Assembly (NCBI GenBank): GCA_039096225.1 | Contig: JBBPEB010000004.1 | Coordinates: 357,001-421,000, forward strand | Length of the DNA: 64,000 nucleotides | Source: Blastocystis sp. Blastoise | Taxonomy: Eukaryota; Sar; Bigyra; Opalinata; Blastocystidae | Reading direction: 5' to 3' | Shown: positions 40,137 to 55,443 of the stretch, piece after piece | How the letters are laid out: the number at the start of each line of letters is the position of its first letter | Numbering within the stretch: the stretch's first letter is position 1 | The notes under the pieces: model-generated | What the model saw: the letters and a program-made list of their open reading frames with translations, nothing else | Told to the model about the DNA's origin: nothing | The model's database searches: none | Translations under genes and position numbers: made by a program

Positions 40137-40323
40137 AATAGGATCCTATAGAGAATAATCTGAAGATTAAACAAGGTAAAATGATAAAACAATAAATGTA
40201 TTTATGCATAAATGAATATATAGCACTACTTTGATATTCTAAATTACTTCTGATGATGATTGTAAATAGAATAAAACTGTGTATTGAAAACTATAAGGTA
40301 AATGATTTTAATTAGTAACTTGT

Positions 40324-40326
40324 TTC
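40324..40326. repeat. Target-site duplication TTC, left copy
   Basis: Three bases next to the left CACTG end, identical to 53151-53153. Three bases is the expected length for CACTA elements. Confidence 0.8.
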
Positions 40327-40343
40327 CACTGGCAGGCATATTT
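40327..40343 (+). repeat. CACTA element left terminal inverted repeat
   Basis: Seventeen bases, CACTGGCAGGCATATTT, exactly inverted at 53134-53150. It is much richer in G and C than its surroundings. The match ends at 17 bases. Confidence 0.88.
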
Positions 40344-40461
40344 GACTTGTTAAAGGTTTTTAATTGGCTAATTTCCGTTCAAAATTCATTCATCCAATGA
40401 GACATGAATAAAAAAAAGACTTAGGCAAAAAATGTTAATTTTTCACAAAAATTTAAAGTTA

Positions 40462-40627
40462 CAGTCCTAATAAAATTTTTTTGGACTTGAATAAAATTCT
40501 TGTTCGAAAAAATATTTATGGTTTTTTATAATAAAATTAGTTTTAGTACGATTATATTTACGATTCAAAATAATAAAATTTAATTGAGGATAATATAATT
40601 CTTGTTTTACTTTATTTTTTAAATAAG
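40462..40627 (+). repeat. 166-bp terminal inverted repeat, left
   Basis: Reverse complement of 42402-42567 with no difference seen. It ends 28 bases before the transposase ATG and probably carries its promoter. Confidence 0.9.
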
Positions 40628-40654
40628 CTCTTACAACTATTAGATTTATTTTCA

Positions 40655-41944
40655 ATGAGTGGTTCAAACGATGACCAGCAGGGTGAAACACCTCTTTCAA
40701 CTTCAACCCTTTTTCAATATAGAGATTCCCTTAATCAAGTTGTTGATGTACCACGTAGAGGAAGAGGAAGACCACGCAAAGACGAGCAATGGCAAAACGA
40801 ACAAAGAAGGAGTTACAAAAAAACTTCCATCAGTGATGATGTCAAGAAAGAGTTCCAAAGACTCTTTACAATTCACGGATTCAAGCGAACTGCTAAGGAT
40901 TATGCTTTAATGCTACCGATTACGGAAGACTGTGCAAAAAGATTTATGAAAAAAATGGTCAACGGAGAATCACTTATCAATGAAAAAAAGAAAACAGGTC
41001 CTAAGGTCATAATCACAAGACAGATGTCAATACGTATCAAAAACATGTTTTTCATCAATCCAAAGTTTCATGTCAAGGATGTTGTTTTAGTTTTATCCAA
41101 CCCAAATCCTTCTGAAGCTGATGTTCTTAGTGACGATTCATATGATGTCACCGAAGAAAAAAGAAAAGCTATGATTGAGGAGGTTGATAGATTAAGACAA
41201 GATTCCACAATCACTCCAATATGCAGCTCTTCAACTGTTCAAAAGCATATGCATAGTACGTTAATGTGTGAGCATATTGGCAAAACTTTTTCCGTTACAC
41301 GACTCTACCCTCGAGGAAAAGCATCTAATAGTGATGAAAATAAGAAACTTAGAATTGAAGTTTTTAAAGAAGTATTCAGAATAAAACAACGTGGTACTTG
41401 TATCGTTTATTTAGATGAGGTTCATTGGGGTTTTAACAATTATGCTCAAAAAGGATGGGGATTTAAAAATCAAAAAATTTATTATCATACAGTTTCCAAA
41501 CGTTTACCAGTTACTGCTATCGCTACAATATCTTCAAATGGAAATGGATATGCAGAAATCTTTGGATGCTCTGTTAATGGAGCTATTTTTCTAGAGTTTT
41601 TTGAAAAATGTATTAAAGAATACAAAAAAACAGAAAATGATTTGTGTTTCTACATGGATAATGCTCCAATTCACATAGAACAACTCTTAGAAATTGCCGA
41701 AAGATATGGTGTTAAAGTAATTTTTGGTCCTCCGTACACTCCAGAAATGAATCCTATTGAACATATTTTCTCTATTTGGAAAAGTAGAGTCGAAAGTAGC
41801 ATTATTTCATGGATTAATCTTGAAAACTTTTATCAAAAACTTGAAGATGTGTGGAATAAATTATCCAGAAATGAAATAAGACGTTGTATTGAACATACAA
41901 ATACTATTACTTTTTCCAAAGTTATGGATAAACATGATCTTTAA
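40655..41944 (+). CDS. Tc1/mariner-IS630 superfamily transposase
   Basis: A single uninterrupted ORF of 429 codons. A basic AT-hook-like segment (RGRGRPRK, residues 35-42) is followed by a helix-turn-helix region around KDYALMLPITEDCAKRFMKK. The RNase H-like catalytic core has VYLDEVHWGF (Asp254), FYMDNAPIH (Asp335) and PEMNPIEHIFSIWKSR (Glu369). There are 33 residues between the second Asp and the Glu, by hand count. The DE part with NPIE and W is typical of this superfamily. It cuts and pastes the surrounding element at TA sites. No intron, frameshift or stop is present. The AT-hook is interesting in a genome this AT-rich. The first ATG is chosen because it follows the left inverted repeat directly. 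Confidence 0.95.
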   Translation: MSGSNDDQQGETPLSTSTLFQYRDSLNQVVDVPRRGRGRPRKDEQWQNEQRRSYKKTSISDDVKKEFQRLFTIHGFKRTAKDYALMLPITEDCAKRFMKKMVNGESLINEKKKTGPKVIITRQMSIRIKNMFFINPKFHVKDVVLVLSNPNPSEADVLSDDSYDVTEEKRKAMIEEVDRLRQDSTITPICSSSTVQKHMHSTLMCEHIGKTFSVTRLYPRGKASNSDENKKLRIEVFKEVFRIKQRGTCIVYLDEVHWGFNNYAQKGWGFKNQKIYYHTVSKRLPVTAIATISSNGNGYAEIFGCSVNGAIFLEFFEKCIKEYKKTENDLCFYMDNAPIHIEQLLEIAERYGVKVIFGPPYTPEMNPIEHIFSIWKSRVESSIISWINLENFYQKLEDVWNKLSRNEIRRCIEHTNTITFSKVMDKHDL

Positions 41945-42401
41945 AAAATTAATTAAAACATTCTTATATTTGGGTTTGTTTTTTGATTATTATTCTTTTT
42001 TATTTTGTAATAGAACATTATCTAATTAATTGTAATTTTCTATTCCACGAATATTTTTGTAAGTAAAGAATTCATAATTATGTTTTGTTTTTATTTAACT
42101 TTTCATCCTCAGCAAGTATTAAATAAAATAAATACATTAGACAATGATGGCTTAAAAGCGAGTTTAGTTTTATTATAGCCGAATTATAAAATTTAGTAAA
42201 AACTTTTTAATATTTTTTGCTGAATAGAATAGAAACCATAAATACATCTTATATCAATTCAAAATAATCTGAATCTCTTTCTTTATGTAGATCAATAAGC
42301 AATCATTATATTGACCCAATATTTTAAAGAAAATAATGCCTTTAGCCCTTGTTCGTGTATTATTTAGAATGCAGAAAAGTCATTTTTAAGTTCAAAATAT
42401 C

Positions 42402-42567
42402 CTTATTTAAAAAATAAAGTAAAACAAGAATTATATTATCCTCAATTAAATTTTATTATTTTGAATCGTAAATATAATCGTACTAAAACTAATTTTATTA
42501 TAAAAAACCATAAATATTTTTTCGAACAAGAATTTTATTCAAGTCCAAAAAAATTTTATTAGGACTG
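42402..42567 (-). repeat. 166-bp terminal inverted repeat, right
   Basis: Mirror of 40462-40627. Ends in AGGACTG followed by the TA duplication. Confidence 0.9.
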
Positions 42568-42569
42568 TA

Positions 42570-45500
42570 ACTTTTGATTTAGACTCAAATACCCTATTAG
42601 ACATATTTTATCAAAGAATGGACATTATTTTTTATTTACAGCGGGTCACATAATATCAAAAACGTTTTTATTTATTTTAAAGTCGTAATTTTGTCAAAAA
42701 AGGGGGTCAATATTTTAAAATATTTTATAGTTGTATTTAAAACGAAGACCATCTAAGAGTCATAAATATGTGTAAAAGTGAATAAAAAGACCTCTATGGG
42801 TCGAAACCAAAAGTCAGCCAAAAAGTCAAAAATTTATATTTTTTTTACACTGAAAAAGAGAACCGAGCCTATTTGTTCCATGGGCAGCCAGACCAGAGTT
42901 TGGAATTTTTAAAATATTTACGGGAATAATTCTTTTGTTCAAAAGTTGGTCTATTTATATTTGTTCACTTTTATTGAGATATAGCATATAAAGAGTTCAT
43001 TTTACAAAAATTTTAAATATATTATGAGATGCGCCATAATATAAACTAATCAAAACTTTAAACAAAGGCTTTTTTTTACATTTTTCAAATACAGTCACTT
43101 TAATTTGTTTCTAAATGTTTATGACTTTAAATAAAATACATTTTCGTAACAGATATATGGTTGAAATACTTTATATACTTAATTGACAATTTTGACATAA
43201 TGAGTACTTTAAATTTTCGAGATTCCCTTTATGTTATACACCAAATAAATGCTGATTAAACTCATTTTGAATCCTTTAGAACACTTGACTCAACTCCAAG
43301 AATTAATTTTAAAATTTTTTTTTGTCGAAAATTCTTCGTTTTTAAAGCGAAGAAAAAATTTAATTCTTCGTATTTTAAAAGAGAACAAATACATAACCGT
43401 GACCATAATTTATTTCAATTTGCCCGTTATGTTCAAACCTTAGATAGATACTAGTATACATATTTTGTTATAATTTAGCATGCATTTTCTACATTATGAA
43501 CTATATAGGTATTTAGAATTTTTTTACACATAACAAGTTATTATGAGGACTTATCATTCAAATATTAGTTCTTTATCAACATAAAAAAAAGCAAAAGTAT
43601 ATAATTATGTCTTGTTTTAACATAAATGATTTTATTTCTTTAATTATTTCTTTCTTTTTATGATTCGTTTAATTCTATTATTTTTTATTTATGTTATTTT
43701 TTGTTTTTCTGAGAATAATTTTAAAATTAGAATTTAATTAAAAGAAATTTATTAATTTTATGATAAATAATATTTTAACAGAATTTATATACTATTATCT
43801 GATTAATTATGCTTATTTTCAGCATTATTATTAATAAATATTCGTTCATTTATTATTTAATTATTCTTTTTATATATTCATTTAGTTTTTATTACTATAT
43901 ATTTGAATATTTATAATTATTTATCTATTTATAATATTAATATAGATATGGATGTTTATAATTCATTATCTTATTTTACATTATGATCTCATTTAATCGA
44001 AAATAGATACTTCATTATGGTTTTCACTTTTCTATATTAGATTAAAACAGTATGAATTATTTCCTAAATACAATCAATGATCCTTATGGTTTATGAACCA
44101 TTTATAGTATATATATATGGTTATATTTCACCTTCCTCCACAAATATAGGTATATTTTATTATTATCATCTACTAAATCGAACCAATATATATAGATCAA
44201 GTTGTTTATTATAATTAGGAATCTTCTACTTATTACTAATATATGTATCTACTCTTCTCGTTATTTGTCTTCTAGGCAAACTAATACAATTTTATTACTT
44301 TTTGCCAGATTCTGGTGTGTTTTTATGAATTATACTAATTATTTTTCATTGTATAACATATATTCCTTTATTAATCCTCCTTCTAACAATATTCAATTAC
44401 TAAAATGCTCATTTATGTTTCTTATATAATACTAGAGCAATAAGAGTGAGTCTAAACAATGAAATATGCTTATATTAAATAATATATATTCTATCGCCGC
44501 TATTATATTAATTCTCTTTGATATTCTTGAGATGCATATATTAATAGTTCTGTACTTACTCTTCTGATACAACTATTAATAATTATATATTAACTAAGCA
44601 TTATAATATGATTCAGATACATTCAAATTATTCGAAATTAGATTTTTAGTCTTGTCAACTCTAATAATAAACCTAATAATGCTATATGTTCCTTTTATTA
44701 AGGTCTTGATATTCACGTTATTAAATTAATAGTTATAAAAAACAGCTATATATTTATACTTCCTACTACTCCCTAGTATCTTTTTGTATACTTTTCTCTT
44801 TCATTATATTTCAAATAATCTATTATTGCTGCTTACATAAAATAAAAATAACTCTCCACTTTCATATCATTTTCTTATTATGAACATATAACTAGTGTTA
44901 TATTCATTAATTGATTTAAAATATTAATTTAATAATACAATTAAATACCTTTAGGTATAATGTATTCATCCTAATATTTCTTCTCGTTAACTTATTTTTA
45001 ATGTGATAAAAATCTATCAATATAAATAGAAGATGATTACGTTTTTATTCATTATTCTTTTTATCAATTATGTGTTTGTTTCTTTCGATTATGTATTAAA
45101 TTGTTCTATTATCAGAGTTATTAATTCTGTTCTTGTCAGTTTATTGTTCCATAGTTACTGATCCCTACTACTTTTAATATTACATACGAGCACTGATAGT
45201 TGCTTTGTTTATATAATTATGTCTGATTTTCTTGTTATTGGATTTATTTATTAGTTCTATATAAACTCTTTAAACATGTGATTATTCTCTCTCTCGAATT
45301 GTGGCTTAATTATGTCATTTCTTGCATCTTTCTCCTGTTATATGTATTATTCTTTGGATATTACAAATGATCATTATGGTGATATTATGATTTACTTCGT
45401 TGTTTATTTCTAAATTACTCCTTATCCTATATTTTATTCTATTTTCACAATTATATTCATCATTTATACAATTATATATGATGATTTGATTTACTACTAC

Positions 45501-48184
45501 TCCTCACTTATTACTAGTTACTGTTTCACTCAACCTATATAAACTTGTATTACATTCTGATTTATTATATCTATCATTTTCTCAAGGTTTATTTATCCCA
45601 TAATGCGTATCATCATATATTTGATACTATTTTAATTGAAACAATACTATTTTATTCAGTTTCTTTCTATTATTAACAAATATACAGTTGATTTCAACAT
45701 TGATATGCTTCAAAGATTCTATATTAATTGAATTCTTCTTATTATTCAATATTACTTCGATCATAACCAAAAAGTATACTATACATATGTTTACTATCAC
45801 TAAAGCTATTATACTTACTTCATATATTATACAACACATATTGATTACTAGTCCATCTTTTCTTATAACTCTTTTGTTCAAACAAAAATCCCCTTATTGA
45901 TTATCATTAACAATTTCAATATCACTAATTGTAACATTTGAGATTATTGTGACTATAATAAGAATTATAACTATTGCATTGAAAGCAGGTTGTTTTCATT
46001 TACAATTTATTATTAAAGGCATGAGTCTAATTTTGCATGATATTACCGTTTTTATTTCTTGTAATTTCGGTACTCATATTACTGATGAAATTAATTCTGA
46101 TCATTTATTTGTTTATTATATTCAATTTCAACATATATATTATTCACATCACTTCATTTATTCATTTTATATTAACTAATGATAGTTTTTATTTTATTTC
46201 TGTTGTTTATTTGTTTTAATTCTTATATCATACTCTTAAGCATGAACATTATTCCTTTATCCTAGGTTTTTAATATATTTGATCCTATTTGTATATGCTT
46301 ATCACTGTGTCGAGAGTGTTCATCAATGATGTTTCTACTTCACCTACTATTTGTATTATTGGTCTCCGTTATATATATATATATATTTAATATGATCACA
46401 ACATTTATGATATTCCTTCTATTCTACCTACTATTTATATTCTTAAAACATCTACATGGCACAAATTTGGCATTTATATTTACTATTTGGTATTTGTTTT
46501 TACTTTCCCCACTAGTTTCTAGTATTAGTACTCATATAACTAATAGTACTACAATTCTTCTTTAATTGTATGGTACCAACTAATATTAAACTACATATCA
46601 ATCAATTAATATCTTGATTTATATGATAATCTTTCTCATCATCATACATTCAATGAATTATGTTATTCATATTTATTCAATATAAATATATTTACAACAT
46701 CTATAATGATAATCAATTCTACTGTGCTTATGCTTCTAAAAGCCTTTAATTTTTCCTACTTTTATTCTCATTGGTTACTTTTAATAATAGTCACTTATAT
46801 TATTATATATAATTTAATAGAATTAATTATCTAGTAATACTATTATTCCACAAATTTCTGAGTTCCACTATTCATTCATTCTACTACTTTTAATATGCCA
46901 ATAACTATTTCTTTTTACAATAATTCAATATCAAATACTCATATTACGAATATTGTTCCATTTAATTCTTAAAATCTTAATTGATTTAAATGATACTTAT
47001 ATATATTAAACATCTGGTATTATTTCTATAATCTTATTGCTATTTCTATACTTCTTATTATTCAGTAAATATTAGTGATTTTATTATAAGAATTCATATT
47101 ATTTGATCAGCATTTAGTATTTATATATCCATTTAATTAATACTATTAATCTTGAATATATTAATACTATTAATATGAAGTCATGCTACTTTCATGTATA
47201 CTATCCCCAATATTGCAATATTTAATATATAACTACTAATCATATACTAAATTAGAATAATATCTTTCTTCAGATATTTATATTTTCTTATGATTATTAT
47301 GGTTGCATTTGGTTTTTCTTTAATACTACATAATATTTGAATATATATATGTACCTATTTATTCATGCTAAAAAATACAAAATATATTGTTTGTTGAATA
47401 CTATTCTTTCGTATCAATTTTTTAAGGCATTATTACTCCCTTTTAGCTACTATTAATACTAATTCTGTGTTACTACAATCAATACTTTCTTAACTTATTA
47501 TTGAATCAAAATATTATTCCATCATTAACTCTATTTGCAACTAATTCAATCCTTTTACTAATATAATCTATTCTAATTTATCTTCTATTCAAATGTTTAT
47601 AATCAAGTGTTACTGAATATCGATTATTCTTACTTGAAATTATTTTATAATTAATAATAACAAAATATTAATTCTAATCATAACGTTTATATTATATATT
47701 AAAGAAGTATAGGTAGAATAATGTCTTTTATATATCAAATTATCATGATAAATAAACATATAGCCACTTCTTATGAAAATACTCTAATATTCTCTTTTAT
47801 ACTGAAGACGTTTTGACCTCTACTATTTATTATATATTCTAATTAATTCAAGAAAAGAGATAATAAATATTTTAGTTTTGCATATGAAAAAGCTTACAAT
47901 ATGCTTCAACTAGTTATACTATATAGAGTATTATTTGTCCCTTTATTAATACATAATATATATGGAGTCATATTTAGAATTGAAATGATTATACAAATTG
48001 TGTATATTCTCCTGTCTAAAAACAAAACAAATCGTTACTAATGTGAATAATTAGAATACTAGATAGGTACTTACATATATATGAGGGAGATAAGAATTAT
48101 ATAAGAGAGATATATAGTTTTAATAAATCATTATAGATATATATAATACTTTATTATATGATGATCATTGTAATAAGCAGATTA
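42570..48184. other. Left arm of CACTA element: no recognisable gene, strongly G-poor on the plus strand
   Basis: From about 43450 to 48180 the plus strand is rich in T and C and very poor in G over more than 4 kb; lines near 45481, 46861 and 47521 have about 10-13 C but 1-4 G in 60 bases. Long A/T-only tracts typical of host introns are rare. Open frames are all under 90 codons and hydrophobic. A short ORF at 43249-43443 contains LNPLEHL, which faintly recalls a transposase but is unsupported. The 42570-43440 part is less skewed and contains an inverted repeat around 43335-43370 (TTCTTCG and CGAAGAA). Confidence 0.55.
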
Positions 48185-51100
48185 TTAAATATAGCTTTCG
48201 TAACGTGCCATGAATACTGTATTGGTAGTCACACTATTTCCTTGAACGGTATGATTTTCTTTCTTCCTTTGTTTTCCTTGATTCTATATATATATAATGT
48301 AAAAGTATAAAGTGATTAAATACCAATTCTGTCTCAAAAGATTCATTTACTATATTATGTTTATCTTCGTGAATATCAGCAATAATTATATTTTCGGGTA
48401 CAATATCCACTATAGATAAGAAACTTGATGAAAATTTATTTTCTCTGGACATTATTCTATTTGAATCTTTTATAATGTAATACAAATTAGTCATTGATTC
48501 ATGTGCCAAAGGATATTCGTGTTTTCTTATTAATATTAAATTACCAATTTGGAGATAGTACAATGCCTTTATCAAATGAATCTCTGATTTTCCATTTATG
48601 TCGTTAGTAATATACATAATATATGAATTATCACGTTGTTCTACTCCTTCATCTTCTGATGATGATGAGAATATTTTATATCTATTTATTATGATTTCAG
48701 AATAGAAATATGTTTCAATGTTTCTAAAGTTATTCACTAGACTGTGAAATACATCTTCATTATTAGTTTCTTCTAATACAGCTTCTATATTATTTATATT
48801 TATATTTTTGAATAATAATCTATTAATAATATGATTATTTGAATGTATTAATATCTTTAAAACATCTTTTATTTCCAATTCTGAGAGTTCCATCCTATCC
48901 ATAGCTCTTATACCTTTTATCATATGTATACTCCCTTTATTTATGTTTATCTCTTTAAAACCTTGAATATTATCTTCTTGATAATTTATATAATTATAAT
49001 CACTAATATTATCATTCTCAGCTGATCTATCTTCAATTGAGACTTGAGAATCATTAATATGATCTGGAATAGAAACAGTATTACTACTAATACTAATCAC
49101 CTCTTTTTCTATTATGGATACTATACACGAATTATTAAAATGTTGTCTCCCAAATGTAGATCGTTTTAAAAATGAATAATAGCGTTCAGATTCATATGTT
49201 GATCCATATTGTAATGATCCTACATTTTGAATAGTTAGATGAAGGTGTTGAATAAGATGAATTTGGGAATTAATGAGTTCTCTAGGTAATAAGAGTTCAC
49301 ATAGAAAACAAAATAAGAAACATTGATCTTTGAGAACTTGCAATAGATGATTTTCAGTATTACCATTATAACGCTGTATTTGACGAACAACAGTTGCAAA
49401 AGGACTTATTAGTAAAACAATTGGAGAATCCTTAACAGTAAATCCATATGTTATAAGAGGAAGAATATAGGAAATAAAGAAGATACGTGTATGAGAAGAC
49501 ATATGATTAAACTTCTTTTCATCTAGAATGTAACGAAATTCATATTCATTCTTATTATATAACGTATTTATTCCTTGAATTCTTGTTTGAAGTATTAGAA
49601 TGTTTTCTTTACTAAGATAAAGTTTCTTCAGTGTGTTCTCTGGATTTATTTTCTTATTCTTAGATAATATAGATATGTATGTATTACTATTATAATGAAA
49701 TAATAAACTTAATAATAAAGTTGCTATATTGTTAAATAGATGCATTATGTCTATACTATAGAAAGTTGCTGCATCAAAATAAAACAAAGATTCAAAAACT
49801 CCAGGTACTTGCTTAACTCCTTTAACAGATTTATCCTTAACACATTCATTTCTATTCTGAATAATAGATTCTTTAGTTCTTATAGGATAATCATTATTAT
49901 TAATAGCATCCTTATATAAATATTTACTAGATATATTATTTAATACTATCTGACTGGAGATATTACACTGATCTATTTGTGACGATATTGATGATGTTGC
50001 TGAATAAGTATTAATTCGGCTGAAAGATGGATATGAGACTGTTATGATATTACCTGTTTCTGTATCAAGTGATATATATTGCTTTATCTTGTTATATGAA
50101 CACTTTATACCACTATGAAATGTTTCATTCTTCCTATCCCATTGTAGTTCGCAATTACGACATGGAAATAATGAAGATGATCCTGTAAAACTAGCTACTT
50201 GAGTTATTGCCGCGCAGTCACCATATATATTCAAAAGTATAGCAACAACTCGTTTTGATTCTATATGTCCATTTGTATATACATCCATAATGATACCAGA
50301 AGATAGTAGTTTAAACTCTTTAGCGATAATATCCAAAACAACATTAGAATAGGATTCATTTGTAATACAGTATGGCCAATAAGAACGAGTATCAATTTTC
50401 CTATTAGTATTGTAGTTGAGAAGTTTTAGAAGTATTGGAAAAGAAGAAGCATTATCATTAGAAACTGGGTTACTAAAAGGAGATATACCATCACAAGTTA
50501 GACTAAATACCAGAAATATATCTCCATTATTAATCACAGATTCAATACATCTTCTATAGTTACCTCCTGACATATATAATGGAATATTTTCAGAATTCTG
50601 TTGTCCTAAAGATAAAACAGAAAATATTTCGTTTTTATCATAGAATGATATATCCTGTATTAAATCTTTGGAAGATAATAGATAACGAATTCTTGGTATG
50701 AGAGGTACTATTGATATTTTTGTACCTATATTATAAACATATAATAATGGCTGAAATTTATTTAAGATAATAAAGTACATAATATACCTATTGTATTATC
50801 ACATTCTTCTCTATGACAAGTTACTCTTATTGGTCTTAACAAATTTCTTCCTGTATTATATCCCAAAAAGGAATTACATGTTTTACAGATATATATATTC
50901 TTATATATTGGCATTTCACTATGTGTGTTACAATACTTTCTTACTACATCCTGACCATTTCGAGGTATTGGAATACTTGGTTGTTGAGGAACTAGAATAT
51001 GAATTGCCTCGTTTATTAATTCATATAGAATTCTTATTTTTGATTTACTAACATTGAGTTGGCACCAATATTTAAATATTATATCTTCTATTCTTGATTC

Positions 51101-51355
51101 CCTTGTATCATTCATAGTACATTTTTGTTGCTAGTAGAAAAAATATATTAATTATTACAGATAACAGTAATGATAAACAAATACAGAATTAAATATATTC
51201 TTCAACAGTGGTCCAGCAGGTGAATCAATGAATAATGGGTCACAAAAAAAATCTGAAGGCTGTTCGTACATATTTTCATCATTTATTATCCATGTGTTTA
51301 CTGAATCTATGAATGCATCACTGTCATCAATCCCTAGTATAATTAAAGCAGTCAT
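48185..51355 (-). CDS. Tnp2-type (CACTA/EnSpm) transposase, intact, four exons
   Basis: Exons 51355-51185, 51130-50788, 50725-48324 and 48283-48185 join in frame: 1,004 codons plus stop. Introns are 54, 62 and 40 bases, all GT-AG and AT-rich. The N-terminal exons include a zinc-binding pattern (YICKTCNSFLGYN, then TCHREECDNT). The main domain matches Transposase_21: FLVFSLTCDGISPFSN, RSYWPYCITNE, GDCAAITQVASFTGSS, FPCRNCELQWD, YSIDIMHLFNN, then HLIQHLHLTIQNVG and YESERYYSFLKR. This is the D-D-x family of CACTA transposases. The ATG at 50780, which starts the longest uninterrupted frame, falls inside intron 2, and splicing at TATAG replaces it. The C-terminal exon is basic and polar. It binds the ends of its own element and cuts with 3-base duplications. 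No stop or frameshift was found. Confidence 0.9.
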
Positions 51356-51483
51356 TCTATTATCATACTCTTTTTTTTAGATTCAAAACCATGAAAGCCA
51401 TATGTCCTTGTTCTCATTATAGCTTGAACAAATAGAAAAAAAAGTGATTGGATTTTAATTATTATTTTAATTATCTTACTTGA

Positions 51484-52351
51484 ATGGAGTATTTATGAAT
51501 TTATATTTGCATAATTGAATTATTAGGAAGAATAGTAAGCTAACTGTTGAGGATATTAAAAAAATTAGAAGATTCAAAATGAATATCAGTCTTGCATGTA
51601 AAGAATTTTATTGTACTATCAGGTTTCCCAATCGAAAAAGTATATAACTAATCTTTTATTCAATTAGTTTTGTATCTAGGTGATTATGGGACAAAGTATT
51701 TAACAGATGATTTAGAAACTGCTTTAAGAAAGATAGCTCTGAATAATGGGATTAGCGTTACTTCATGTAAAACGTCTACAAGAATGATTAAGGTATATAC
51801 ATATTTTTGCAATTTAATTATATTATTTGTAGAAAGTACTACAATATATTCCATATGTTTTAAGTCAACGAGAAAGAAATAGTGCAAAAGATATGTTTAT
51901 ACATTCTGAAGAATGTAATAGATTGAATATTCATAATTCTTTATACCTTCTTATTTTAAAAATTATTAAGAAATACTTTTTAAGTTATTTATCTACAATT
52001 TATGTTGATGACTATACTATTATTAAAGAAGTGAGATCTTCATTAGCGGATAAATTGAATAAATGTACATTTCATTCTTTTTTTGGTTTTCAACTTATTT
52101 CAAATGGAAAGAAAATACAGAAAAGTACAATTAAAAAGAATGATATCTTTGTATATTTATATATTATATTAATATTTGTTTTATTTTATTCTTTTACTGT
52201 TTAAACACTAAATATAATATATATATAGATATACTTATGGGAATCCAATTTTAATAAAATAGAGAAAACCGATTATATTTATAAAGCCAATCAAAAAATA
52301 ATAGATAATATTAGCGTCATATATGACGCAATTCAAAATACAATTAATTGA
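51484..52351 (+). CDS. Accessory gene of the CACTA element, unknown product
   Basis: Five exons join in frame: 51484-51488 (ATGGA), 51527-51639, 51680-51792, 51833-52150 and 52229-52351, 223 codons, TGA stop. The protein starts MEKNSKLTVEDIKKIRRFKM and continues NISLACKEFYC, then DYGTKYLTDDLETALRKIAL, KDMFIHSEECNRLNIHNSLY, YLSTIYVDDYTIIKEVRS, and ISNGKKIQKSTIKKNDIF. It is helical and basic. CACTA elements commonly encode a second, DNA-binding protein (TnpA/TnpD types) divergent from or beside Tnp2, and this gene is divergent from the transposase with 128 bases between starts. A function in binding or regulation is inferred from that only. Intron 2 could instead end at 51667, adding residues ILYLG in place of S. 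The five-base first exon is the weakest join. Confidence 0.6.
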
Positions 52352-52516
52352 TTTTTTTATTGATTCTTGATTGGTTTATTATCAAGAAATTTCTTATATT
52401 TTCTTTATTTTCTTATTTATATATATATATATTTCTACATATTTCTTTTATGTTTTTAACAGTTTTACAATAAAATCCAAGTAATTATACTATATTGTTT
52501 TGTTTCTATTATTTTA

Positions 52517-52800
52517 GGCTTCTATGTTTTCAAATAGCTTTATATAGAGAATTTTTTGTAAATGCTATACTTAATTTTAGTTTGTTTTTATTATATATAG
52601 TGCCATTTTAAAGGTGACTTCCAACTTATTAGATCACTGTTTGTTCAACAATTAAGGTATGTCATTTACATTTTTCATAATTTTTTTATATAGTATTTCA
52701 AATCAAGAACATATTAATATAGAAGGTATTTACTTTTTTTTACAATTTATCCATTTCTATATATAGATATCGTCTAGTATTATACACAGCAAAACTAATT
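52517..52800 (+). CDS. Possible further small exons in the CACTA right arm
   Basis: Segments after plausible acceptors join in one open frame: LLCFQIALYREFF, then CHFKGDFQLIRSLFVQQL, SISNQEHINIED and a short final exon IV with TAG. Donors GTAAAT, GTATGT and GTATTT and acceptors ending TATAG fit. About 45 codons have no stop, and the piece at 52602-52656 is richer in G and C than its flanks. No start exon in frame was found, and the joins were chosen for openness, so this could be chance or a decayed gene. Confidence 0.3.
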
Positions 52801-53133
52801 AAACACTAATATACCAGAAGCTATGCATTATTAGAGCTAAAATAATATTTTTTTTTGTTTATAATATATTATATACTGATAAATTAATCTATTGTTATTT
52901 ATTTCGTTTTTGTAATATAAAATTTATAAAAAAATAATATGCTAATTAGAATAATTGTTTTGTTTTGTCAAGTATTATTTTTTAAATTATAATCAGAAAA
53001 CCAGGGAGTTATTTTATAACTAAAAAATTAGAAGAAATTAAAGCATCATTCTTTTGTCGATCAAAAAGGTAATCTGAAATGGTCTTAAAAATAATTAAGA
53101 AAAAATTCTCATAACGCGGAGTTTTATTTCCAT

Positions 53134-53150
53134 AAATATGCCTGCCAGTG
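53134..53150 (-). repeat. CACTA element right terminal inverted repeat
   Basis: AAATATGCCTGCCAGTG, the exact reverse complement of 40327-40343, followed directly by the TTC duplication. Confidence 0.88.
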
Positions 53151-53153
53151 TTC
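53151..53153. repeat. Target-site duplication TTC, right copy
   Basis: Same three bases as 40324-40326. Confidence 0.8.
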
Positions 53154-53380
53154 TATATAATTATTCATAACAAAGATTAACACATACTCTTATATATAGG
53201 TAAACGAAGAATCAAATTAAAATAGAAGGTTAATTCATTTAAAACAATGAAACAATACAACGAAGTTAGTTTTAATGAAGGAGATGACGAAACCTCAAAA
53301 GATACACAAGAAAAACCCTTGAATTCCAGTAAGAAACGATTTTTAAAACAGTTTATTGTTTCATTATTTGGCACATCTCT

Positions 53381-54557
53381 ATGGCTAGAATGATGAGTAC
53401 ATCAGATTCATCTTGGGTTCCATTAGTCTCAAATGCTTACACTCCTGATGGAGATTCTTCGTCGTCATCTAGTAGTCAATCAACACAAAAAGAATCTCAA
53501 ACTGTTTATTTGAAAGACAGTCATGTTTCACCAAACAACAGCGTCAATAGACTTCTTGAATTAAAAGGTTTATTGGAATCAGGACAGATTTCAATGGAAG
53601 AATACAGAGTATATATACTTTTATTTTTAGTCTGATATAGTTTAGAATAAGTACAAGCTATATATTCATTATATTATAAATATTATGGAGTTCATTCATT
53701 ACGTTTATCTTTCTATAGAAGAAACTCACGGAGATCTCTTATCCATCAATATCCTCAAGCCCAATGACTCAACGAGAATCGAATCCTGGAGACGATACTC
53801 GATCTTTAAGTAAAGTTTATGTGATTCCTCAGGATCCACCCACTTCTTTCAACTTAATACCCTTAGAAAACGCTATTAAATATATATATACGATTGATGA
53901 TAAAGGAGTTGGAAATGTATTTTATTCATTCATTATATTTGTTATTTTATTTATGTTGTTTTCATTTTTCTTTTATTATATATATTATATATTATTTCAT
54001 TTTTCTTTTATTATATATATTATATATTATTAGTGGTCCCATGATAGATGTTGTGTTCGAATGTGTAATATGCCATTTAGTCGTGGATGCTATCGAGCAG
54101 CTTATCATCTGATGGAGTATGATATCTATGATTCAAATACTAAGGAATATACACTTGAAGAACCCTTTGATAAAGAAGGAAAAAGAGTATTTATTATATA
54201 GTTATTCATAATTCAATATATATAATTTTATTTATATTATTTTTAAAATTGTTTTCTTAGGATACAATTTAATATATCAATTATTATTATTATTATTACT
54301 ATATATTTAAATTTATACTTCATAATCTTTCGATACTCTATATATATATATATATATATTATATATAGATAACTTTTGTAGGTAAGGTTCCCGATACTCA
54401 TAAGATTAATGAAGAGAGTTTTATTAAAGATGTTGAAATGCAAATACTATGTGAGAAATATGCAGCTCTCTATAACTCGTATTTATATTATGAATTAGTT
54501 ATTATATTATATGGATATCTTATGTTTTTCCTTTATATTATTATTATTATTATTATT

Positions 54558-54600
<43 letters not shown>

Positions 54601-55443
54601 TCTCTATTTATTATATATATAATACTATAACAATTATCTTCAGTCATAATCCTCCATTATGTATTCATTTCAACAATACCTGGTTAATACGTTTAATAGA
54701 TCGTCCTCAACAGCCACTTATTTCTGTTGAACCTTATTTAAATGGTACTTATATAAAACAGAATAATAATGATGGTTATGTAAATAATTCAAGAAATACT
54801 CCACAAGCATTTAGTCATTTTACTTATGAAGCTTCAGGACATACATTAATTATTGTAGATATACAAGGAGTAGGAGATATATATACAGATCCTCAAATAC
54901 ATTCTTCAGATCCATCTCAATTTGGAATGGGGAATCTTGGTTTAGAAGGATTTGAGAAGTTCTTTAGAACACATCGATGTAATCGTTTATGTGAATGGTT
55001 ATATTTAAAACCAGTCAATTATTGTGATGACCAAGGAGATGGAACACTACCGGAAACAGAACACATCCAGGACAACAAAATATCTCCTTTTATATTTCGA
55101 CCCCAACGTATTCTTGACATATTTGATCCAAATGCAGTTCGACCTACGTATATATTATATGTTTATTATTATTTTTATTATTATTATTATACTGTGTTTT
55201 TATTATTATTATTTTTTTATTATTCTTTTTTTATTATTCTTTTTTTTTTATTCTTTTAATATTATTCATTTTATAAAAATATTTTTATTATCCTATATGT
55301 AATTCAAATCTCATATTTAATTGAATTCTATATCTATTTTATTATTTATTAATCTATATATATATATACATAGTCCAACTTCACCCTATAAATTTACTTC
55401 AAAGTTCTTTCGTCTCTTTGGATGTAAATGTTGTTATGAATAA
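53381..55443 (+). CDS. Alpha-kinase (eEF2-kinase/MHCK family)
   Basis: About seven exons. A Ser-rich start (residues from MARMMSTSDSSWVP) and LLELKGLLESGQISMEEYR precede the kinase domain. The domain begins WSHDRCCVRMCNMPFSRGCY with RAAYHLM. It continues FVGKVPDTHKINEESFIKDV and EMQILCEKYAALYN, then PPLCIHFNNTWLI, VEPYLNGTYIKQNNNDGYVN, TPQAFSHFTYEASGHTLIIV, DIQGVGDIYTDPQIHSS, FGMGNLGLEGFEKFFRTHRC and NRLCEWLYL. The DIQGVGD-TDPQ block, the GxGNLG loop and the His/Cys zinc set at the end are specific to alpha-kinases, most like eEF2 kinase. The C-terminal SEL1-type repeats of animal eEF2 kinase are absent; the protein ends GCKCCYE. An open frame from ATG 53246 (MKQYNEVSFNEGDDETSKDT) could be a 5' exon. 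The CACTA right end is about 230 bases upstream of the chosen start. Confidence 0.88.

Follow-up and report, generated by a model that had tools for sequence, protein, structure and literature searches.

Evidence for a two-gene CACTA (EnSpm) transposon in the genome of Blastocystis sp. Blastoise

Introduction

Described relatives of the element reported here include the CACTA/EnSpm transposons of plants, the giant EnSpm elements of Ectocarpus, and the fungal EnSpm/Plavaka elements. Here, we describe a 12.8-kb element at positions 40327–53150 of a 64-kb window (the whole stretch of DNA analyzed, contig C13, 357001–421000) from the 33.3-Mb genome of Blastocystis sp. Blastoise, which is assembled in 34 contigs. 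Its sequence features make it very probable that this element is a CACTA (EnSpm) DNA transposon, a known superfamily that is represented here by a well-preserved member in a new host.

Compared with the plant elements as outlined in PMC4158355, the Blastocystis transposase is too divergent for the Pfam family Transposase_21, its partner gene is arranged head-to-head and lacks a Pfam family, and the window element starts with CACTG, while an element nested in a second copy on contig C15 starts with CACTA. The giant EnSpm elements of Ectocarpus, also a stramenopile host, are generally larger than 10 kb (maximum 15.2 kb), with nested insertions in most giant families, according to the account in PMC12477816; this likeness is one of description rather than of protein comparison. 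Red algae, too, harbor giant EnSpm elements that carry accessory genes, according to the same account. Fungal EnSpm/Plavaka elements of the CMCT group share D, D, E residues with C(2)C and H(3–4)H motifs with the Blastocystis transposase and, as portrayed in PMC12730594, mostly have CA..TG termini and 2- to 5-bp duplications, and may carry accessory genes. In contrast to elements described there, the Blastocystis accessory gene has no Pfam match and shows no sign of TET/JBP, and the Blastocystis ends differ from the Plavaka termini (TGT..ACA or CATCA..TGATG).

The assemblies of Blastocystis ST1, ST4, and ST7 measure 16.5, 12.9, and 18.8 Mb, and the words transposon, transposable, and transposase are absent from the main text of the paper giving these sizes (PMC5608401). 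The ST7 genome paper uses "transposon" once, for repeat masking. Among the titles listed in our literature searches, none reports CACTA elements from Blastocystis.

Results

Element ends and target-site duplications

The boundaries of the window element consist of the following features:

40324..40326, no strand: left target-site duplication TTC, read from the sequence
40327..40343, + strand: left terminal inverted repeat CACTGGCAGGCATATTT, exact 17-mer
53134..53150, − strand: right terminal inverted repeat, exact 17-mer, inverted copy of CACTGGCAGGCATATTT
53151..53153, no strand: right target-site duplication TTC, read from the sequence

The exact 17-bp inverted ends and the flanking TTC had been proposed in a first-pass annotation, and both were borne out in coordinates and orientation. 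Allowing up to three mismatches, the 17-mer has two matches in the window, with 0.05 expected. The annotation had also regarded a lack of further genomic copies of the 17-mer as an argument against the element; such copies exist, since the exact 17-mer occurs three times in the genome, and a fourth end (the left end of the C15 copy) carries one mismatch. The genome-wide search additionally revealed related inverted pairs 6.9–14.1 kb apart with 3-bp duplications, among them pairs with a related end on C23 (14,145 bp), C18 (14,116 bp), C28 (7,915 bp), and C29 (6,853 bp).

Perfect 3-bp duplications were present at all eight boundary pairs examined, namely those of the window element, the C15 copy, the insert nested in the C15 copy, and the elements on C23, C18, C28, C29, and C16; this check left out further end matches, for example on C1, C10, and C14. 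Both the inverted CACTA or CACTG termini (seen in the window element, the C15 copy, and the nested CACTA insert) and the 3-bp target-site duplications are as in CACTA/EnSpm elements. The duplication length also differs from that of RAG1/Transib elements, as the target duplication of Transib is 5 bp.

A second copy and reciprocal nesting

The C15 copy is 99.5–99.7% identical to the window element over 10.1 kb. The right-hand 4951 bp of the window element correspond to C15:435975–440925 with 14 substitutions, the next 5181 bp differ by 23 substitutions and one 2-bp gap, and the left 590 bp, skipping a mariner insertion, are 98.6% identical (five substitutions and two gap openings). The C15 copy is flanked on both sides by ATT, rather than by the TTC of the window, and hence represents an independent insertion.

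The two copies are interrupted at different places. In the window, the interruption comprises:

40462..42567, + strand: nested Tc1/mariner-like element, 2106 bp, with TA at 40460–40461 and 42568–42569; missing from the C15 copy
40655..41944, + strand: mariner transposase open reading frame (DDE_3, 67.7 bits; first ATG assigned by eye)

The TA target duplication and the DDE_3 transposase identify this insertion as Tc1/mariner, and its empty site is preserved in the C15 copy as an uninterrupted GTTAAC, where the window has TA on either side of the insert. A nested transposon had thus been correctly noted earlier, while its limits are corrected here to 40462–42567. A near-identical copy of this mariner lies at C29:102789–104903, and shorter matches to its ends occur on C3, C20, and C25.

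The C15 copy, in turn, is split at the position of window 43020–43022 by 26,223 bp (C15:446104–472326) that start with CACTAATAGGTG, finish with the inverted end CACTAGTAGGTG, and have ATA on both sides; the corresponding empty site, with a single ATA, is the window copy. The insert holds transposase and accessory hits. It is probably itself nested, with a smaller length of its own, because a further CACTATCAGG left end lies inside it near C15:470784 (locus L030).

The transposase and its relatives in the genome

The transposase gene occupies the following position:

48185..51355, − strand: CACTA transposase gene, four exons (51355–51185, 51130–50788, 50725–48324, and 48283–48185), 1004 amino acids

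Spliced on the pattern of P0001, the protein annotated for the C15 copy, the window transposase has 1004 residues and no stop, and 1002 of the 1004 residues are identical between the two. The earlier description of a Tnp2-type gene without stop or frameshift therefore stands as to intactness, with the amendment that there are four exons, the last of which lies outside the long open frame. Based on the definition taken from PMC12730594, which places C(2)C and H(3–4)H motifs between the second D and the E of the D, D, E triad, the catalytic and motif residues are D250, D341, C360, C363, H661, H665, and E685, with H(3)H in this case.

The predicted match to Transposase_21 (PF02992) was not obtained directly; the direct Pfam match of the window transposase is a sub-threshold DUF4218, to which seven of eight family members show weak similarity (best E 1.2e-4). 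We nevertheless hold to kinship with Transposase_21, because bridging proteins and profile comparison make the connection. Relatives within the genome score 30.2 (L062), 28.8 (P0012), and 27.7 bits (P0013) with this model, the cut-off being 28.6, and these relatives are tied to the window transposase family by BLASTP (E 3e-34) and hhalign (99.95%). Database protein searches returned 10, 1, and 2 proteins, all from Blastocystis sp. Blastoise, and recovered no EnSpm sequence from another organism; only word-sharing candidates were scored (7989, 22, and 7994), so that an absence of homologues in other organisms cannot be concluded. A sequence search of the PDB with the transposase gave no match at E ≤ 1. 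In the structural model, the C-terminal region appears weakly similar to a BAH fold; by sequence (PF01426), nothing matched in this region, and no title on a transposase with a BAH domain was found in the literature searched.

A six-frame genome search with the 853-residue transposase frame yielded at least 74 matches, which merged to about 50 genes or remnants, several of them with stops; 53 of 89 candidates were scored, which makes these counts a lower bound. The C16 element is a 7,851-bp pair whose ends are of the CACTA type and whose target duplication is TTT; it lies at L074:2090–8001 (C16:944089–950000) and continues to C16:951939. No transposase match was found in L074, an 8-kb locus covering most of this element, and its frames of 113, 191, and 195 amino acids are without Pfam match and possibly represent captured sequence. 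P0009 and P0010, annotated transposases of a related group, and C15:452768–456538 contain long ITSIYYINS-type repeat runs that look as if a minisatellite had expanded within the transposase gene. In one other group, nine transposase loci (on C3, C4, C8, C13, C14, and C34) score identically, which suggests a recent burst.

The accessory gene

The accessory gene that the first-pass annotation had placed within the element is present and diverges from the transposase gene:

51579..52254, + strand: divergent accessory gene P0011 (annotated WA158_002783), 149 amino acids; exon positions 51579, 51682, and 51833 determined by script, the last exon and the outer limits assigned by eye

P0011, the sole database protein returned for this gene, is probably the annotation of the window locus itself. 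The 104-residue accessory exon has 41 matches in the genome, and 38 of the 50 transposase genes or remnants left after merging have an accessory hit within 9 kb upstream. At C18:22771, this hit is borrowed from a neighbor and shares the strand of the transposase, which leaves 37 of 50 with their own head-to-head partner, 1.0–5.4 kb upstream. For four accessory hits, no transposase was listed; unpaired genes of either kind could reflect loss or the limits of the searches.

Nine members, chosen from 12 loci plus the window, were aligned (leaving out L071, L072, and L073, which are the most divergent and had no tblastn match, and L063, which is near-identical to L021), and all nine carry an invariant FGF near the protein end. 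Pfam searches with P0011 and with the nine members of the alignment gave nothing beyond isolated, weak matches under the cut-offs, and a PDB sequence search with the accessory protein gave nothing better than E 0.39. A conserved second gene is present, with a putative helper role in transposition.

Left and right terminal regions

Inside the left inverted repeat lies a longer conserved region:

40327..42962, + strand: left terminal region, split by the mariner and 527 bp long when this is excluded; 20 loci match at 82–86%

Matches to these first 527 bp, taken in the mariner-free C15 version, comprise the 17 loci L027–L043, L060, L061, and the nested CACTA insert; some are partial, two starting only from position 8 or 137 and the nested insert from position 15. 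In four cases (L041, L060, L061, and the nested insert), a listed transposase lies next to the left end, with 42–53% protein identity to the CACTA transposase of the window element. Other linked left ends, 81–85% identical over about 130 bp, belong to transposase genes that are 40–56% identical, and transposase DNA, where compared, is mostly 65–68% identical. For the window and nested elements, left-end similarity to others stops near position 527–530, the 50-bp bins before this stop giving 0.90–0.94 against L027 and L029 and 0.78–0.88 against L060. Other left-end loci match one another further (1.0–2.0 kb at 73–100%), which weighs against a discrete module. For the right 211 bp, matches are confined to the window and C15 copies, although right ends look alike by eye across some 40 bp.

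A 16-base motif from the left region occurs 56 times in the genome, compared with zero for the reversed control. A listed transposase lies within 20 kb in the expected orientation at 17 of these 56 sites (15 distinct genes) and in the wrong orientation at two; three C15 sites share one gene, one of them being the host copy's own end, and one site is 19.5 kb away. Many of the remaining sites may be transposase-less elements. Sharing of left ends possibly results from constraint on a cis-acting site, or from exchange of ends. A coding exon was considered for the left region, since inspection by eye shows a short frame in several copies; the aligned copies differ in length by single nucleotides, however, which speaks against coding. 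Ten tests for conserved RNA structure (five stretches, both strands) gave a best z of −2.25, which is not convincing.

Discussion

A two-gene CACTA/EnSpm cut-and-paste transposon is, with little doubt, the best explanation of the sequence features of the window element, because of its ends, the 3-bp duplications, an intact CMC-type catalytic frame, a conserved divergent partner gene, and two independent, near-identical insertions. The transposase would pair the CACTG ends, cut with its DDE site, and insert with a 3-bp stagger. By analogy with plant CACTA elements and their second protein, the partner protein would assist, most likely via DNA binding near the ends. Following separation of the two copies, a Tc1/mariner element would have inserted into the window copy and another CACTA element into the C15 copy.

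Some results weigh against this assignment. A direct match to Transposase_21 was found in none of the eight family members, and the window locus was not among the matches listed in a genome search with this model. The structural model of the transposase is poor (mean predicted local distance difference test score, pLDDT, 52.7; best Foldseek E 0.038), and no separate accessory hit belongs to 13 of the 50 merged transposase genes. Single-sequence folding of the accessory protein gave an unusable model (mean pLDDT 35.2) and no fold.

The element had been called possibly active, a claim that we retain only as recent movement, which is supported by the 0.3–0.5% difference between the two copies. 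It is quite possible, if short of our preferred view, that the element moved recently and is now immobile, the left end of the window copy being split by the 2.1-kb mariner, and the C15 copy being interrupted by the 26-kb insert. The mariner begins 135 bp inside the end and breaks the conserved left region, and the C15 copy combines a mutated end with a nested element. On the other hand, the transposase has an open frame, the ends of the window copy are perfect, and insertions within an element do not necessarily prevent its movement. That a chance inverted repeat surrounds an unrelated captured transposase gene can practically be dismissed, given the 0.05 matches expected and the C15 copy, which has the same bounds and a different duplication and thereby refutes it. 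Membership in another CMCT lineage, such as a Plavaka-like one, rather than in EnSpm proper would fit the missing direct Transposase_21 match and the C(2)C and H(3–4)H motifs and mostly CA..TG termini that the CMCT lineages share in the description of PMC12730594; it is nonetheless improbable, as CACTG/CACTA ends with 3-bp duplications follow the EnSpm pattern and both the weak DUF4218 similarity and the profile link to PF02992 proteins point the same way.

Within a CACTA/EnSpm assignment, the element could belong to a distinct Blastocystis lineage that combines a RAG1-like transposase bearing a C-terminal BAH-like chromatin-reading region, a head-to-head partner of a new family, and an exchangeable left-end module of ~530 bp common to divergent groups, which would also mobilize transposase-less elements with other sequence; we consider this combination rather unlikely. 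CACTA elements may explain part of the difference in genome size between this genome and ST1, ST4, and ST7, considering the approximately 50 transposase genes or remnants and the 56 copies of the left-end motif. With its near-identical copies, reciprocal nesting, and perfect duplications, the family is well suited to the study of CACTA ends and their partner proteins in a natural setting outside plants.

Other features of the locus

Between the left terminal region and the transposase gene lies a stretch poor in open reading frames:

42963..48184, no strand: longest stop-to-stop frame 99 amino acids, purine-rich on the minus (transposase) strand, in both copies

From 43020 onward, the two copies are 99.5% identical across these 5.2 kb. 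A degenerate tandem array was considered and rejected, as repeated 8-, 10-, and 12-mers are within the first-order Markov range. Stops are not depleted on the minus strand, and lag-3 autocorrelation is slightly raised (0.373, compared with a mean of 0.341). An Rfam scan of 40300–53200 at E ≤ 1 gave three matches, all far under the gathering score.

To the right of the element, window 53247–55259 contains an alpha-kinase frame (54369–55256, 153.7 bits). A possible start ATG of this gene, identified by eye, lies about 97 bp from the right end, and the element may therefore have inserted near the alpha-kinase promoter.
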